From an uncultured Nitrospira sp. (GTDB lineage: Bacteria; Nitrospirota; Nitrospiria; Nitrospirales; Nitrospiraceae), in the NCBI GenBank assembly GCA_902500775.1, contig CABVRZ010000048.1:1-32120 (forward strand): a stretch of 32,120 bases of DNA, given 5' to 3'. Position numbers and translations under genes: made by a program. Of the stretch, positions 3 through 6,190 are shown piece after piece (position 1 is the first letter of the stretch; the number at the start of each line of letters is the position of its first letter). Under the pieces are notes generated by a model that did not search any database, was not told the DNA's origin, and saw nothing but the letters and a program-made list of their open reading frames with translations.

Positions 3-1829
3 CCTTCACTGGCTATCGGTGAAGAGACTCATGCGGGCGATGCGGCAAAGAAGGACGGGGATAAAGTCGAAAAGGGTCGGGATGTCTATTATAAGACAGA
101 AGGCATCGTGTCTGGTGCTCCGGCTCCTAAGACGACGGATGGTGTTAAGGACTATCCGAGGTATAACTTTGAAAGTCGTGTGTTGCTCTGGTTTGCGAAC
201 CAGCAGCATCTCTACTACGGCAGCTTTGTGCTGGCTGTGCCGATTTTCTGCATGATCATCGAGTTTATGGGGGTTGTGACGAAGGATAAGGCGCTCGCGA
301 AGCGCTATGACCAATTGGCTTATGATTTCATTAAGATCAGTCTTACTGCCTACTCCCTCACGGCTATCCTGGGAGGTATTCTGATCTTTACCTTCTTGAC
401 TCTGTATCCGGCCTTCTTCTCCTATTTGTCTGGCATCTTCCGTCCTGTCATGCACATCTATGCATTGATGTTTGTGGCGGAGAGTGGAACTCTCTACATT
501 TACTACTATGGATGGGACAAGATGAGGGAGGGCTTCCTCAAGTGGATCCATTTGAGCATGTCCGTCGTCTTGAACGTCATCGGGACATTGCTCATGTTCC
601 TCGCAAACTCTTGGATCGGTTTCATGATGTCGCCTGCTGGCGTTGATGAGCAGGGTCGGTACCTCGGAAATATCTGGCATGTGATTCACACCGCACTCTG
701 GAATCCACTTAACCTCCATCGAATCCTGGGTAATATGGCCTTTGGTGGTGGTGTTGTCGCGGCTTATGCTGCGTACAAGTTTTTGGCCTCAAAAACGGAT
801 GAGGACCGAGCCCATTATGATTGGATGGGCTACATCGCTATGGCTTTGGGTGTGGCGTTTCTGATCCCATTGCCATTTGCCGGATACTGGCTCATGCGTG
901 AAGTTTATGCGTATCGGCAGCAGATGGGTATTACATTGATGGGCGGACTGCTTGCCTGGTTGTTCATCATTCAAGCCACCATGATCGGAATCCTGTTCTT
1001 GAGCACCAATTACTATCTCTGGCAGGCCATGGGTCGCATGCGCGGGGCAGAGAAATATCAACGATACATCAAGTATCTGGTCTTCCTGCTTGCCTGCGGT
1101 TATATGGTCTTTATTACTCCGCACACGATGGTAATGACTCCGGCGGAGCTGAAGGCCATGGGAGGTCAACAGCACCCAGTGTTGGGTAACTATGGGGTTA
1201 TGTCTGCGAAAAACGGAGGCATTAACGTCATTATTACAACCACGGTCTTGAGCTTTGTCTGGTATATGCGAGGCAATAAAGTCTCGACTGTATCTTGGGC
1301 GAAGTTCGGTAATATCTTTATGGGCGTGTTCTTCGCTTGTGCATACTTCAATATTATCTTCCTTGCTGTGTACGGATATTACATTCCGGCAAACGTCCGG
1401 GTTGGTCTGTCAGTTCCTCAGGTGGCGACAACTCTGTCCTGTCTCTTCTTCATGTTTGCTTTAAATAGCTTCATGATGAAGGGTGCCAAGCAGATGGGGC
1501 CGATTGAGTGGGGTAAGATCTCCGCTCGTTCGCAATATGCTCTCATTATGTTGGCGACCGCGTTTACCTGGATGATGGGTTTGATGGGCTATATTCGCTC
1601 GTCGGTCAGGCTCTTTTGGCACGTCAATGAAATCATGCGGGATAATTCCCCTTGGGCCTATACCCATACGGTAGGATTTGCCGCCAACATGATTTCAGCC
1701 AACGTGTTGTTTTTCTGGATTACTATTCTCTTTGTTTTCTGGTTGGGTAGCTTAACGGCGAAGAAGGTTCCGGTTGAGTCAAAGGCCGGAATTCCTGGTA
1801 GTGTTCCGCAGCCGGCACCCAGTCATTAA
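3..1829 (+). CDS. Cytochrome bd-like oxidase subunit I (CydA-like), 5' end outside window
   Basis: This is a large hydrophobic protein, probably the catalytic subunit of a bd-like terminal oxidase in the cytoplasmic membrane. The frame is open to the left window edge. A GTG at 108 exists, but the upstream codons read as a plausible hydrophilic leader, so the true start is probably before the window. The N-terminal block SRVLLWFANQQH matches the CydA motif that carries the first haem-ligand histidine, and LHRILGNMAFGGG resembles a second conserved histidine helix. I count roughly a dozen or more hydrophobic segments. A charged C-terminal tail follows the last helix. It leads an operon of cytochrome c proteins, which suggests that electrons arrive from or pass through c haems rather than only from quinol. 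Nitrospira genomes are known to encode such divergent bd-like oxidases. The exact donor and proton pumping cannot be read from sequence. Confidence 0.85.
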   Translation, partial: PSLAIGEETHAGDAAKKDGDKVEKGRDVYYKTEGIVSGAPAPKTTDGVKDYPRYNFESRVLLWFANQQHLYYGSFVLAVPIFCMIIEFMGVVTKDKALAKRYDQLAYDFIKISLTAYSLTAILGGILIFTFLTLYPAFFSYLSGIFRPVMHIYALMFVAESGTLYIYYYGWDKMREGFLKWIHLSMSVVLNVIGTLLMFLANSWIGFMMSPAGVDEQGRYLGNIWHVIHTALWNPLNLHRILGNMAFGGGVVAAYAAYKFLASKTDEDRAHYDWMGYIAMALGVAFLIPLPFAGYWLMREVYAYRQQMGITLMGGLLAWLFIIQATMIGILFLSTNYYLWQAMGRMRGAEKYQRYIKYLVFLLACGYMVFITPHTMVMTPAELKAMGGQQHPVLGNYGVMSAKNGGINVIITTTVLSFVWYMRGNKVSTVSWAKFGNIFMGVFFACAYFNIIFLAVYGYYIPANVRVGLSVPQVATTLSCLFFMFALNSFMMKGAKQMGPIEWGKISARSQYALIMLATAFTWMMGLMGYIRSSVRLFWHVNEIMRDNSPWAYTHTVGFAANMISANVLFFWITILFVFWLGSLTAKKVPVESKAGIPGSVPQPAPSH

Positions 1830-1911
1830 CCTGTGTCTTCTTTGCTAGTCGGCTCAACGGACAGGAGGGGACAAGTCCCCTCCTGAGTTGTAGCTGTAGG
1901 AGGTCACGACC

Positions 1912-3216
1912 TTGGGTAACTTGATTGCAGAAGCACTGTCGATGGGTTGGATGGCTCTGGCCATCCTTGCGGGTCTGCTGGTTTACTTTCAAGTAAGTAT
2001 CAGCGACCCTGCTGCGAAGAAGCGCGCAGTATTTAAGACGTTCATTGGGATTGTATCCTGTTTCCTTCTCTTTATGGCGATCGCCAATTACAAGACTAAC
2101 TTCTATGGCGAAAGCCGGTTGCTCCCTGTCTCATTAGTGATGATCACGGTGACAACCTTCATCATGGCGCTGTACTTCACGAATCTTGGGGCCCTCCTCA
2201 AGATCGGTGGCATGATGTTCTTCGTGGCTGCGTTCCTTTCTGGTTACGGGAACTGGCTTCCTCAAGTGGAAGGTGGCTTTCCGCCGGTTGAGGAGAAGGT
2301 TACGTGGGAAACCATGTCTACTCAGCAGCTGGCTGACAAGGGTGAGGAAATTATCTTTGGCGGGGTCGGAAAGAATAAGGAGCAAGGTGCGATCGGTAAG
2401 GGACAATGTCCGCTTTGCCATGCTTTCCACGCCGGTATGCTCGGTGAGAGAGCGCCAAACTTGTTAGGTTTGCCAACACGCAAGGAGCGCTTAGAGGACC
2501 CTAAGTATTCTAAGGGTAACCCGTCAAAGCGTGAGTATTCGGCCAAGGAGGCATTCCCAGGTTCAGGCACTGCCGAGACCGTGCAGGAATATATTGCAGA
2601 GTCACATGCCTGTCCGAGTTGCTATGTCGTTGCCGGCTATGGGGTGAAAGGCACGAACGATAAAGAAAGCCCGATGCCCTCGATTCATAAGCCACCAATA
2701 TCTCTCAGTCTCGCAGAGCTTGCAGCCGTTGATACTTGGATGTATGCGCGCGAAGGGATCGAGCCTCCATCATTCGATGAAATCGTGAAGTCGTATGAGA
2801 AGTTCGTTCCTGAGGCAGACCGTCCGAAGCAGGCAGATGATAAGCCAGCAGGGGCCACATCGCTGCTGGCAGATGGGTCAGAGCCTGTTGATCAAATTTT
2901 TGCCAAAGCTCAGTGTGTGTCTTGCCATACCATCCCTGGTATTCCTGGTGCCATGGGGACGATCGGTCCGAAGCTTGAGGAAGGGACCACTGCGGCGCAG
3001 CGTATAAAGGATCCAGCCTATAAGGGCACAGCAAAGTCATCTGCTGAATATATTATGGAGTCGATTGTTGATCCGAGCGCCTATGTTGTGAAGCCATTCC
3101 CGGATAAGACAATGCCGGCTATCTTCGGACAAAAATTGAGCGCTGGAGCATTGAAAAAAATTGTTGACTACTTATCGCAAGTAAAAACTGGGGCGCCACC
3201 ACCAAAGATTTCATAG
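1912..3216 (+). CDS. Membrane-anchored diheme cytochrome c protein
   Basis: The 434-residue protein has about four N-terminal membrane helices (residues ~4-27, 44-61, 70-92, 95-115). Two periplasmic cytochrome c domains follow, with haem motifs CPLCH (C166, H170) and CVSCH (C335, H339). The two domains look like a tandem duplication: both carry a downstream block of the form EYI-ES-PS-YVV followed by MP. In domain 1 this block contains CPSCY, which is the counterpart of DPSAY in domain 2 and is therefore probably not a haem site. The TTG start is chosen because AGGAGG at 1898-1903 lies 8 nt upstream. It sits 82 bp after the oxidase gene on the same strand, so it is likely cotranscribed and a partner subunit or electron carrier of the oxidase. 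The role is inferred from context. Confidence 0.85.
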   Translation: MGNLIAEALSMGWMALAILAGLLVYFQVSISDPAAKKRAVFKTFIGIVSCFLLFMAIANYKTNFYGESRLLPVSLVMITVTTFIMALYFTNLGALLKIGGMMFFVAAFLSGYGNWLPQVEGGFPPVEEKVTWETMSTQQLADKGEEIIFGGVGKNKEQGAIGKGQCPLCHAFHAGMLGERAPNLLGLPTRKERLEDPKYSKGNPSKREYSAKEAFPGSGTAETVQEYIAESHACPSCYVVAGYGVKGTNDKESPMPSIHKPPISLSLAELAAVDTWMYAREGIEPPSFDEIVKSYEKFVPEADRPKQADDKPAGATSLLADGSEPVDQIFAKAQCVSCHTIPGIPGAMGTIGPKLEEGTTAAQRIKDPAYKGTAKSSAEYIMESIVDPSAYVVKPFPDKTMPAIFGQKLSAGALKKIVDYLSQVKTGAPPPKIS

Positions 3217-3257
3217 TCCTCAGTTGATCATTATGCGTGAGTAAAGGGAGTTTGCCG

Positions 3258-4295
3258 ATGAAAGCGTTGATGTCTCTTGGTGCTTTGATTGGAGTAGCTG
3301 GGCTGCTTCTTTTGGGTGGAATGTTCTTTGACGTTGTTCCATCCAATACGGTGCGATTAGTCGAAGGGTATATGCCGATCCAGCTGCTGCTTGAAGTGGC
3401 ATGCTTTGTGATCGGTTTTACTGGGCTGAGCTACATGATGAATGCGATGGGTATGGCTCTCCCTAGGTTTTGGCAAGGGATCGGGTTTTGGATATTTTTA
3501 ATGGTCTATCTGAAGTATCGCGTCTATCCTCCGATCCCCTTCAGCGTACGTGCAATGTATGGAACGGTGGGTCTTGTCACGGTATTCATGTGGGTGTCCG
3601 CTAATGAAGAGGACTGGAAGAAGTTTAAGCAGCCTATCATGAATGTCCTTGATGCACAGACCGGAATGAACAGGCTTCTTCGGTACGCATACCTTGTTCT
3701 CATTCCCATTCTAATTGGTGGGTTCTCTTTCAATGCGATGATGCCGAAGTCGGAAGAGCCTATTGAGCTTCGGACAGTACATCCTGCGCCTCCTGCAAGT
3801 ACGAAGGTGCATGGGAAGACGTATACGCTGCAAACCTCACAGAACCCCTATCGGGTTAATCCGGAAGGGAAGTACGATCAAGAATTCTCGAATGCCAATA
3901 TTGTCGAGCAGGGAATGGGGCGTTTGATGAAACCAAATGCCAACCCATGGGATGAGAAGAACCAAGGTTATCTGAAGTATGTCAGAGAAGGTGGAGAGAT
4001 TTTCTTCCAAAATTGTCATTTCTGCCATGGTGACAACCTGAATGGGAGAGGGCTGCACGCCTTTGCCTTCAATCCAATTCCTGCAAATTTTACCGATCCA
4101 GGCACGATCGCACAGTTGCAAGAAACATTTATCTTCTGGCGCGTTTCGAAGGGTGGTATCGGATTACCCAATGAAGGATTCCCGTGGGCTTCAGTCATGC
4201 CTCCATGGGAACAACACCTGACCGTGGATGAAATTTGGAAAGTCGTTTTGTTTGAATATTGGCACACCGGCTACTATCCACGGACTTGGGATTAG
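3258..4295 (+). CDS. Membrane-anchored monoheme cytochrome c protein
   Basis: The protein has about 345 residues and roughly five hydrophobic segments in its first half. The C-terminal cytochrome c domain has one haem motif, CHFCH (C253, C256, H257), followed by GDNLNGRG, typical of class I c domains. A likely distal methionine lies in the SVMPPWE block. I prefer ATG 3258 over the in-frame GTG 3237 because AAGGGAG at 3244-3250 lies 7 nt upstream of it. It follows the diheme cytochrome gene by about 40 bp in the same orientation. The combination of a multi-helix anchor and one c domain fits an electron-transfer subunit attached to the oxidase complex. The exact partner is inferred, not shown. 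Confidence 0.83.
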   Translation: MKALMSLGALIGVAGLLLLGGMFFDVVPSNTVRLVEGYMPIQLLLEVACFVIGFTGLSYMMNAMGMALPRFWQGIGFWIFLMVYLKYRVYPPIPFSVRAMYGTVGLVTVFMWVSANEEDWKKFKQPIMNVLDAQTGMNRLLRYAYLVLIPILIGGFSFNAMMPKSEEPIELRTVHPAPPASTKVHGKTYTLQTSQNPYRVNPEGKYDQEFSNANIVEQGMGRLMKPNANPWDEKNQGYLKYVREGGEIFFQNCHFCHGDNLNGRGLHAFAFNPIPANFTDPGTIAQLQETFIFWRVSKGGIGLPNEGFPWASVMPPWEQHLTVDEIWKVVLFEYWHTGYYPRTWD

Positions 4296-4350
4296 TCGCT
4301 ATACCCCTGAGAATGCCAAACCAAACATAATGAAGATTATGAGGCCAAAC

Positions 4351-6123
4351 ATGATGGACAGTATGACTCAGAAGGCCGGGATCATCGCGGCTGCAGCCTT
4401 CGGAGTGGTTTTAGTGTCGAGTGCTGGATATTCGTCAGTTTCAGCGCAAGGGCTCCCCGAGGGATTTAAAAAGGGTGATCTGGCGCCTGAACCTTCTGCA
4501 GAAATGATTGAAGCGGGGAAGCGAGTCTATTTCACCAAGTGCGTCTGGTGCCATGGTGTCGATGGGGCAGGTGACGGGCCTGGTGCCGATCGTCTCTGGC
4601 CTCGCCCACGTAACTTCAATCAAGGAACATTCAAGATTCGGCATACGGCCAGCGGAGAGTTGCCCTTGTTTGACGCCAAGAAGCCGATCCCAGGTCAAAA
4701 TGATCTCTTCGAAACGGTGACGCATGGTTTACCCGGATCTGCGATGCCTCCGTGGGAAGGTATCTTGAGTGAGGAGCAGCGTCAGCAAGTCCTCTCTTTC
4801 GTGACGACCCAGCTCGTCAAGGATCGAAAGTTTACCGATAAGCAGTCAGAGAGCCAAACAGTGCTTCAGTTGGCTGATTTGAAACCGAAACCTGCCACCG
4901 ATGAAAGTCGAAAGCGTGGTGGTGAGTTAATCGTTGAAAAAAAATGTGTCGAATGTCATGGCATGGAAGGTCGTGGTGATGGAAACGCCTTCAATCTGAA
5001 AGATGACTGGGGCTTCTCCATTCAGCCGGCCAATTGGCATAAGTGCTGGAACTTCCGTGGGAGCCGTCAGGATCCCTACAACGTAGCGAACATTTTTAGA
5101 ACGTTCTCGACTGGTGTGAACGGTACACCAATGCCTTCGTTTGCAGACAACACCACTGTTGATGAACGCTGGGACATTGCCAACTTTGTCAATTCTCTTT
5201 GTGAACGGGATCCACTGGGTAACCCCCTGCCAATCGATCCTCTGACTGATAAACCCAAAATCAATTTCGTCATTCCATCGGATATGGTCGAGGGGGAAAT
5301 CCCAACCGATCTTGAGCATGAAGCGTGGAAAAAGGCTCCAAAGCGATACGTGGCTATGGGAGGGCAGATTACCCACAAGCCAAGGAACTTTGTGAATCGG
5401 CTTGACGATATTTGGGTGCGATCACTCTACAATGATAAACACATTGTCTATCTGGTTGAGTGGGATGACCGAACGAAGAGTGTGGCCGAAGGTAAGCTCC
5501 CTTGGGCTCCTACGCAAGTCAATATCGATGTCAAAGAACAGGATCCCAAGACCGGTGAAGAAGGATCCATTGCTGCCCACCAAAATAACTATGCCGTCTA
5601 TAATGACGCGATTGCCATTGAAACCGCGGTGAAGTGGAAGGAGCTTCCAGCTCCCATCAAGCCGAGGTACTTGTTCGGTACGAACGAACAGTTCCCCATG
5701 GATATTGTGAAGTGGGAAGCGGACGGATCGCTTCGTGCCTTCAAAGGGACGGGCTGGGATAAAGACTTTGAAGAGCGCGACAATTACGAAGAGGCCATGA
5801 AGCTCTTGAAGGCGGAGTGGAAGAATGGCCGGTGGTACGTCATGATTCAGCGGCCTGTCGGAAATAAGAAGGATCAAGATTACGATGAAGATACCTTCTT
5901 TGAAGTGGGCCAATATATCCCAACGGTGTTCTTTGCCTGGGATGGTCATAATGGTGATGCAGGACGGAAGATGGCTGTGTCAGCCTTCTACTACACCTTT
6001 ATGAACCCACCAGTCCCACAGGAGACGTATATTTATCCGGTCGTCATCGCGGTCGGTGTGGTTCTCTTAGAGGGCTGGGTCTTGACCCGCCGTTCAAATA
6101 AGAAAAAAGGAAAGACACTGTAG
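4351..6123 (+). CDS. Diheme c / ethylbenzene dehydrogenase gamma-like haem-b protein
   Basis: This modular exported protein (about 590 residues from ATG 4351) has a signal-like N-terminus ending near VSAQG. Two cytochrome c motifs follow, CVWCH (C64, H68) and CVECH (C199, H203), each followed by a G-GDG block. A long beta-rich domain (about 240-550) resembles the haem-b-binding gamma subunit of ethylbenzene dehydrogenase and related DMSO-reductase-family enzymes. A single C-terminal membrane helix (YIYPVVIAVGVVLLEGWVL) ends in a basic tail. The frame is open back to 4228, inside the previous gene. I prefer ATG 4351 because GAGG lies 6 nt upstream, but 4330 and 4354 are also possible. It is the last gene of the oxidase operon and is followed by a terminator. 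Similar c/b fusions are discussed as gamma-like subunits in Nitrospira nitrite oxidoreductase systems; that link is inference here. Confidence 0.82.
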   Translation: MMDSMTQKAGIIAAAAFGVVLVSSAGYSSVSAQGLPEGFKKGDLAPEPSAEMIEAGKRVYFTKCVWCHGVDGAGDGPGADRLWPRPRNFNQGTFKIRHTASGELPLFDAKKPIPGQNDLFETVTHGLPGSAMPPWEGILSEEQRQQVLSFVTTQLVKDRKFTDKQSESQTVLQLADLKPKPATDESRKRGGELIVEKKCVECHGMEGRGDGNAFNLKDDWGFSIQPANWHKCWNFRGSRQDPYNVANIFRTFSTGVNGTPMPSFADNTTVDERWDIANFVNSLCERDPLGNPLPIDPLTDKPKINFVIPSDMVEGEIPTDLEHEAWKKAPKRYVAMGGQITHKPRNFVNRLDDIWVRSLYNDKHIVYLVEWDDRTKSVAEGKLPWAPTQVNIDVKEQDPKTGEEGSIAAHQNNYAVYNDAIAIETAVKWKELPAPIKPRYLFGTNEQFPMDIVKWEADGSLRAFKGTGWDKDFEERDNYEEAMKLLKAEWKNGRWYVMIQRPVGNKKDQDYDEDTFFEVGQYIPTVFFAWDGHNGDAGRKMAVSAFYYTFMNPPVPQETYIYPVVIAVGVVLLEGWVLTRRSNKKKGKTL

Positions 6124-6161
6124 TCTTTCATTGAACCGCGAATAGGCGTTGTTCTGTCGAA

Positions 6162-6190
6162 GGGGGTGGGGATAACCCACCCCCTTTTTT
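6162..6190 (+). terminator. Intrinsic terminator of the oxidase operon
   Basis: A 9-bp perfect GC-rich stem (GGGGGTGGG at 6162-6170 and CCCACCCCC at 6176-6184) with a 5-nt loop is followed directly by six T (6185-6190) and an AT-rich stretch. It lies 39 bp after the last cytochrome gene and just before mobA, so it separates the respiratory operon from the housekeeping genes. Confidence 0.93.

Follow-up and report, generated by a model that had tools for sequence, protein, structure and literature searches.

What does a CydA-like membrane protein do when it has no CydB and stands beside three genes for c-type cytochromes? The question is raised by the beginning of contig CABVRZ010000048.1 from an uncultured Nitrospira sp. 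(assembly GCA_902500775.1). The window analysed here is this entire contig (C48, 32,120 nucleotides), one of 79 contigs in a genome of 4.53 Mb. Four genes follow one another on its plus strand: bd3, which encodes the CydA-like protein; cc4 and cc5, which encode membrane-anchored c-type cytochromes; and altC, which encodes an alternative NxrC-like protein. The evidence leans, if only somewhat, toward an OR-N-type bd-like O2 reductase that is fed by cytochrome c and operates without CydB and without a known quinol site.

The gene set is real and has already been described. By synteny, on which the name rests, it is the 'bd-like_3 / alt_NxrC_2' cluster of N. moscoviensis (PMC6606698). What the present analysis adds is the distribution of these genes in genomes without NxrA and CydB, a map of conserved and lost residues, and arguments against a CydB substitute. 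Many nitrite-oxidising Nitrospira are reported to be without haem-copper oxidases (PMC6606698, PMC10579370), so their respiration is believed to depend on a bd-like complex that awaits biochemical characterisation. For the energetics of nitrification it matters whether electrons from this module go to O2 or to the quinone pool.

An original prediction, made from the sequence of the window, had placed a CydA-like gene without CydB beside three c-type cytochrome genes. Open reading frames (ORFs), Pfam matches to c-type domains in cc4, cc5 and altC, CxxCH counts (two, one and two, respectively) and the lack of any PF02322 match on C48 confirm this arrangement, except that the cluster ends at position 6123 and not 6190. 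The kinship it suggested to clusters known in Nitrospira is borne out by the same genes in the same order in N. moscoviensis, and its statement that the mechanism is unsettled is upheld.

A CydA-like core without a known quinol site

Kinship to CydA is concentrated in the first half of bd3. The Pfam family Cyt_bd_oxida_I matches residues 58-305 only (4e-20), and a profile alignment of bd3 residues 59-309 with E. coli CydA residues 9-253 has 97% probability and ends where the Q-loop starts. The C-terminal halves reach 3% in profile alignment. An AlphaFold model of bd3 (predicted local distance difference test (pLDDT) 71, predicted TM-score 0.69) superimposes on E. coli CydA (6rx4_A) with a VIA Z of 24.4 over 331 residues at a root mean square deviation (rmsd) of 4.7. 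Its Foldseek whole-chain TM-score against CydA is low (about 0.35), and the packing of the C-terminal half is therefore uncertain. When the N-terminal segment seen in relatives is included (the bd3 ORF of locus L038 is longer by 30 residues than the copy in the window), the model corresponds to a CydA-like core of about 14 helices without the known quinol site. CydB does not appear in the VIA rows shown for bd3, and Foldseek places CydB chains below CydA; neither is informative either way. Outside the CydA chains, the model has its best VIA match in chain F of alternative complex III (6btm_F, Z 18.1, 317 residues, rmsd 4.5), which scores clearly higher than all later ones.

Sequence searches of solved structures (E≤0.01) give bd3 a single match, subunit I of a bd menaquinol oxidase (9r2g_A, 9e-6). 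The cc4 protein matches a diheme protein (7zs0_A, 3e-12) and 1w2l, cc5 matches only 8smr_G, and the best match of altC is a 'conserved hypothetical cytochrome protein' (6h5l_B, 5e-40), followed by general cytochromes c.

Three MAFFT settings were used to compare the residue columns of 11 canonical CydA rows with those of 16 OR-N rows. The columns of E. coli CydA residues H19, E107, H126 and H186 are kept in all 16 OR-N rows. A conserved Q-loop, which the original prediction had named as evidence that would speak against it, is not found in bd3: the K252 column is Met in 14/16 OR-N rows and the E257 column is Met in 16/16, with no Lys or Glu. The search for a quinol or copper site that had been advised thus yields no known quinol site, no Cys conserved at 95% or more in the bd3-family residue scan, and too few conserved His.

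In a larger set that covers four OR-N paralogue groups (bd1 to bd4), no row with a letter departs from His at H183, H239 or H540, and a single bd4 row does so at H69. H374 is His in all bd3 and bd4 proteins, in 8/9 bd1 and in 7/8 bd2. The C-terminal signature that ends at H540 (M525..M528..R532...R536..WH540) is a candidate for a new haem or proton site. In canonical cytochrome bd, H19, H186, M393 and E445 are haem ligands. Since E99, M393 and E445 are not kept, the haem set of bd3 is not readable from its sequence.

Haem-copper oxidases use six His ligands. This identity was considered and rejected: no window protein matches PF00115, and conserved His are too few. Among eight bd2-type proteins (putatively NIDE0901-like), five columns are His in at least six rows, and four of these columns are common to all four groups.

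Cytochrome partners and the search for CydB

No match to CydB (PF02322) occurs on C48 or on contig C20, which, when placed on relative L038, ends about 690 bases before C48 starts; the gap itself is unseen in this genome. Read backwards from bd3, the relatives carry two FGE-sulfatase-like proteins, in some cases a small ORF, a DUF3047 protein, and bd4, a second CydA-like protein. C20 carries the two FGE-sulfatase-like genes, the DUF3047 gene and bd4 (locus L054). Extension upstream, where a standard cydB would have contradicted the original prediction, therefore reveals none as far as the region could be reconstructed, and a second CydA-like gene instead. The only CydA/B-type partner in the neighbourhood is bd4, about 3.5 kb upstream of bd3. 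Elsewhere in the genome, CydB matches lie on contig C35, beside a canonical CydA, and in a broken piece on contig C14. The latter stretch (G000:C14:35781-36569) has five internal stop codons and is probably a decayed cydB.

The original prediction also counted four and five helices in the two middle proteins and proposed that they replace CydB. Hydropathy agrees with four segments in the window's cc4. For cc5 it gives three or four, and a low-confidence AlphaFold model (pLDDT 54) has five or six; that this model has no match in the PDB at E≤0.001 is uninformative at such a pLDDT. Both proteins do have membrane helices and adjoin a CydA-like gene where CydB is absent, as would be expected of a second membrane half. 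However, hhalign probabilities of 5.8% for cc4 and 0.2% for cc5 give no profile kinship to CydB, and the number of helices varies. Several relatives of cc4 have one to three hydrophobic segments; 8/19 aligned sequences have a single one (L094, L095, L097, L101, L102, L104, L105 and L109), and L094, L095, L097 and L101 among them belong to the same class as the window genome. The first cc5 helix is missing in the rows of families f2, f3 and f4. A joint CydB substitute is therefore very improbable, and cc4 and cc5 are best read as anchored electron carriers. Within its first cytochrome domain, cc4 has a CPxC pair with no His after it, which is present in 12/12 aligned sequences of the class Nitrospiria and in 0/7 more distant or paralogous ones. 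It may form a disulfide or bind a metal.

The altC protein consists of an N-terminal hydrophobic, signal-like segment, two CxxCH motifs, a domain of the EB_dh / dimethyl sulfoxide (DMSO)-reductase-II haem-b-subunit type as in NxrC, and one C-terminal helix. Its match to EB_dh (PF09459; 3.6e-8) is barely above the cut-off, at 34.2 bits against 33.3, and its match to TIGR03477 (DMSO reductase type II haem b subunit, NCBIfam; 4.8e-15) falls below the cut-off. In locus L100, altC is split into two ORFs.

Conservation and distribution of the module

Distribution was examined in a draw of 198 Nitrospirota genomes, most of them drafts, including 56 Nitrospirales (families f1 and f3). The bd3, cc4 and altC genes are each found in 55 of the 56 Nitrospirales, with G223 as the exception (counted from listings, with cc5 outside this count). 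The order bd3-cc4-cc5-altC is colinear in 16/16 chosen Nitrospirales loci and in 8/9 genomes of the same class outside the order; in the ninth, a contig end interrupts the locus. Loci L107 and L108 were left out of this count. A divergent form of the module occurs in L102, L109, L110 and L111. All but one of the best 80 loci listed in the scan for relatives carry Nitrospirota-type labels. The remaining one is labelled Nitrospinota (L186, 79% identical), which we suspect is a naming matter; statements here on anammox bacteria and Nitrospina rest on papers.

The module is not tied to nitrite oxidation, since it occurs in genomes without NxrA. At E≤1e-100, NxrA is matched in 48/56 Nitrospirales and in none of the nine same-class genomes outside the order. 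CydB (E≤0.001) is likewise matched in 0/9 of these and in 35/56 Nitrospirales (one of the 35 below the family cut-off), which leaves 21 module-bearing Nitrospirales of the draw without a CydB match. COX1 is matched in two of the nine (G209 and G225). Eight same-class genomes thus have the four-gene module without NxrA and without CydB, and six of these eight have no haem-copper oxidase match. Nor is altC restricted to genomes with nitrite oxidoreductase (NXR): it has a match in all nine same-class genomes that have no NxrA match, although in G227 it lies on a different contig from bd3 and is perhaps a paralogue. At E≤1e-30, NxrA is found in 0/4 genomes of family f4 and 7/8 of family f2. Three of the four f4 genomes have cc4, and f4 loci L048 and L049 show all four genes.

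Absence of NxrA is imperfect evidence, as 8/56 Nitrospirales of the draw also have no match, and PMC12342949 warns that NXR may be lost in assembly. The single-contig genome G022 has no NxrA match at 1e-30, though its genus includes nitrite oxidisers. Matches of the NxrA query at 39-42% identity in eleven genomes outside the class are probably other type II enzymes.

In G180 (96% complete), bd3 is the only PF01654 match, and neither CydB nor COX1 is matched. G039 (a single contig, 100% complete) encodes NxrA and four CydA-like proteins that all score at the OR-N level; CydB and COX1 are not matched in it. Provided that G039 respires O2 and lacks O2 reductases of any other kind, the reduction must fall to an OR-N protein. 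Module-bearing lineages without NxrA, and G180 with bd3 as its only CydA-like match, are natural test cases for the function of the module.

The tree unites bd3 and bd4 with two more genes, both from family f7, in a single group (100/100); support for the split between bd3 and bd4 is lower (86/87 and 93/92). Module-borne genes of families f13, f18 and f19 branch outside this group, and bd1 and bd2 are further off. One CydA-like gene per module is therefore likely to be the older state.

Candidate functions

Gene content, colinear conservation, the CydA-like fold, Q-loop loss, the kept histidines, the lack of profile kinship between cc4/cc5 and CydB, and occurrence without NxrA or CydB are together best accommodated by a cytochrome c-fed O2 reductase. 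Such a complex would be built of a single CydA-like core in the membrane and three cytochrome subunits of the c type. A periplasmic donor, in Nitrospira NXR or a cytochrome c, would deliver electrons to altC, which would bind one haem b and two haems c. By way of the membrane-anchored cc5 and cc4, the electrons would then reach haems bound by the kept histidines of the core, the most likely place of O2 reduction. The apparent fusion of cc5 to altC in L105 and L106 is as expected of parts of one complex.

Several observations weigh against this interpretation. The genome studied here and G022, G039, G176 and G118 also carry proteins of the bd1 and bd2 types; these two have been proposed to form the terminal oxidase, and in those genomes O2 need not be reduced by bd3. 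Reports of related clusters also come from the anaerobic anammox bacteria (PMC3578206, PMC8026999). In the OR-N rows, the E99 column of CydA is a gap under two MAFFT settings and Y153 under one, so that the Glu is not kept. M393 is Met in 0/16 rows under all three settings and E445 is Leu in 16/16 (L527, adjoining the invariant M528), both columns resting on a weak C-terminal alignment. Finally, G180 has two molybdopterin-family matches and may use another acceptor.

Some of the same facts are cited for the main rival, in which the bd scaffold serves as a cytochrome c:quinone oxidoreductase and is no oxidase. The proton motive force would push electrons from cytochrome c at the level of nitrite to the quinone pool by reverse electron flow. 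This has been proposed in PMC3578206 and PMC6606698; it fits the related clusters reported in anammox bacteria (PMC3578206, PMC6606698, PMC8026999), the presence of bd1/bd2 as another candidate oxidase in the same genome, and the loss of E445 and E99. However, the known quinol site leaves no sign in the sequence, where the E257 and K252 columns are Met as given above and CydA homology ends, although another quinone site is possible. The module is also present in genomes without NxrA, and in one genome (G180) where bd3 is the only CydA-like match. We regard reverse flow from nitrite as possible though unlikely. A broader form, in which a bd-fold complex without O2 reduction links periplasmic c-type cytochromes to the quinone pool by proton-driven reverse transfer and is older than and independent of nitrite oxidation, seems slightly less likely again.

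In a narrower role, the set would serve NXR alone, as its membrane anchor and electron outlet, with altC as the gamma subunit. The NxrC-type EB_dh domain of altC points this way, as do extra bd3 copies within about 0.4 kb of nxrA in G055 and G230, and PMC6606698 reports high transcription under nitrite oxidation and considers an anchor role. The same paper is sceptical of a core NXR role for alt_NxrC_2, on account of its lower transcription. Such specificity is improbable when eight of the nine same-class genomes without NxrA, and two of the three cc4-bearing f4 genomes, which also have none, show all four genes. A further proposal concerns the make-up of the core: bd3 and bd4 could form a CydAA' heterodimer that is served by the three cytochromes. 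A bd4 gene lies about 3.5 kb upstream of bd3 in 13/16 Nitrospirales loci, with one more fragment at a contig edge; the two share one tree group, as described above (100/100; split between them 86-93%); and such a pairing has been proposed for OR-N1/OR-N2 (PMC12342949). Yet some module-bearing genomes show no bd4 in the vicinity of bd3, as is the case in both f4 loci; G180 has no second CydA-like match; and in G203 and G209 the three CydA-like proteins are bd3 and one each of the bd1 and bd2 types (in G209, the bd2 type by position only). The heterodimer is rather doubtful. It is compatible with a cytochrome c-fed O2 reductase and could hold in Nitrospira alone.

Feature coordinates and paralogues

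Positions of genes and selected residues and motifs in the window
Feature	Position	Strand	Evidence or remark
bd3, CydA-like membrane protein	3..1829	+	608 aa present; N-terminus cut by contig edge
H69, column of CydA H19	207..209	+	His in 128/128 bd3-family rows with a letter
H183, column of CydA H126	549..551	+	His in 158/158
H239, column of CydA H186	717..719	+	His in 159/159
H540, in C-terminal signature M525..M528..R532...R536..WH	1620..1622	+	Kept in all lettered rows, four OR-N paralogue groups
cc4, membrane-anchored c-type cytochrome, two CxxCH	1912..3216	+	ORF, Pfam, hydropathy
First CxxCH of cc4	2407..2421	+	Motif
CPxC pair of cc4, no His after, inside first cytochrome domain	2611..2622	+	Alignment
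Second CxxCH of cc4	2914..2928	+	Motif
cc5, membrane-anchored monohaem c-type cytochrome	3258..4295 (start probable)	+	ORF, Pfam
CxxCH of cc5	4014..4028	+	Motif
altC, alternative NxrC-like, two CxxCH and EB_dh domain	about 4339..6123	+	ORF, Pfam
First CxxCH of altC	4540..4554	+	Motif
Second CxxCH of altC	4945..4959	+	Motif

A paralogous module lies on contig C1 of the same genome (L052). Its first gene, bd1, encodes a more distant CydA-like protein. Next come two cytochromes with one haem each, the first having two hydrophobic segments and the second three (the second is 37% identical to cc5), then an EB_dh protein with a helix at its C-terminus and a cytochrome with two CxxCH motifs; bd2 and a Rieske protein are encoded at a distance of a few genes. 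This looks like a version of the module in which altC is divided between two genes. The only bd2 copy of the genome (L052:17788-19497) is divergent, with a tree branch of 0.69, and has Ala where 7/8 bd2 proteins have His in a TPH motif.

The extra bd3-like genes within about 0.4 kb of nxrA are at L112:8145-14078 (G055, 79% identical) and G230:C1:2318486-2324010 (82%). The bd3-like gene of L112 has no cc4, and further bd3-like copies without cc4 nearby occur in L169, L176 and L184. The FGE-sulfatase-like pair between bd4 and bd3 (L038:5056-7174; L054:4-1891) has an N-terminal helix in each protein, and one or both genes also stand upstream of bd3 in same-class loci without bd4, for example L094, L097 and L098. 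Searches by tblastn found no plasmid relatives of the window genes, and the viral contigs gave 39 pattern matches with no relative of the window genes among them.

Comparison with known systems

The closest known system is the bd-like_3 / alt_NxrC_2 cluster of N. moscoviensis (PMC6606698). It comprises a bd-like gene, two membrane c-type cytochromes and an alternative NxrC in the order found in the window, with a bd-like duplicate nearby. Between L156 (N. moscoviensis) and the window, the CydA-like protein is 93-94% identical, and no substantial difference was seen. A conserved cluster of Nitrospinae, Nitrospirae and anammox bacteria described in PMC8026999 has the same kinds of genes: a bd-like oxidase, diheme and triheme cytochromes c, and an alternative NxrC. 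Its haem counts differ from those of the window, where the two cytochromes have two and one CxxCH and there is a CPxC pair. The same paper reports Gln and Phe replacements at proposed Cu/haem positions. In anammox Scalindua, O2 reduction is credited to a cbb3 oxidase and flavodiiron proteins (PMC13253579), and that text, as far as available, mentions neither bd-like nor CydA.

The OR-N names come from Murali et al. 2021, as cited in PMC12342949 and PMC10839748. With the OR-N type bd-like oxygen reductases / CydAA' described there, the module shares a CydA-like core, the lack of a known quinol site, cytochrome c as the supposed donor, and Nitrospirota as host. Assignment of bd3 is by features and at the level of the family, above that of subtypes OR-N1 to N5. 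Whereas OR-N1 and OR-N2 are proposed to pair, the window module is also found in a genome with a single CydA-like match.

The canonical cytochrome bd quinol oxidase CydAB has the CydA fold and the H19, E107, H126 and H186 columns in common with bd3. In contrast to it, the window set has no CydB, no Q-loop and none of E99, M393 and E445, and it has c-type cytochrome partners. TO_1 of Candidatus Manganitrophus (PMC9040806) combines a bd-like protein with a periplasmic cytochrome b in a member of the Nitrospirota without nitrification genes. If TO_1 is the same module and not the bd1/bd2 one, it may be a forerunner of the NXR-free occurrence described here.

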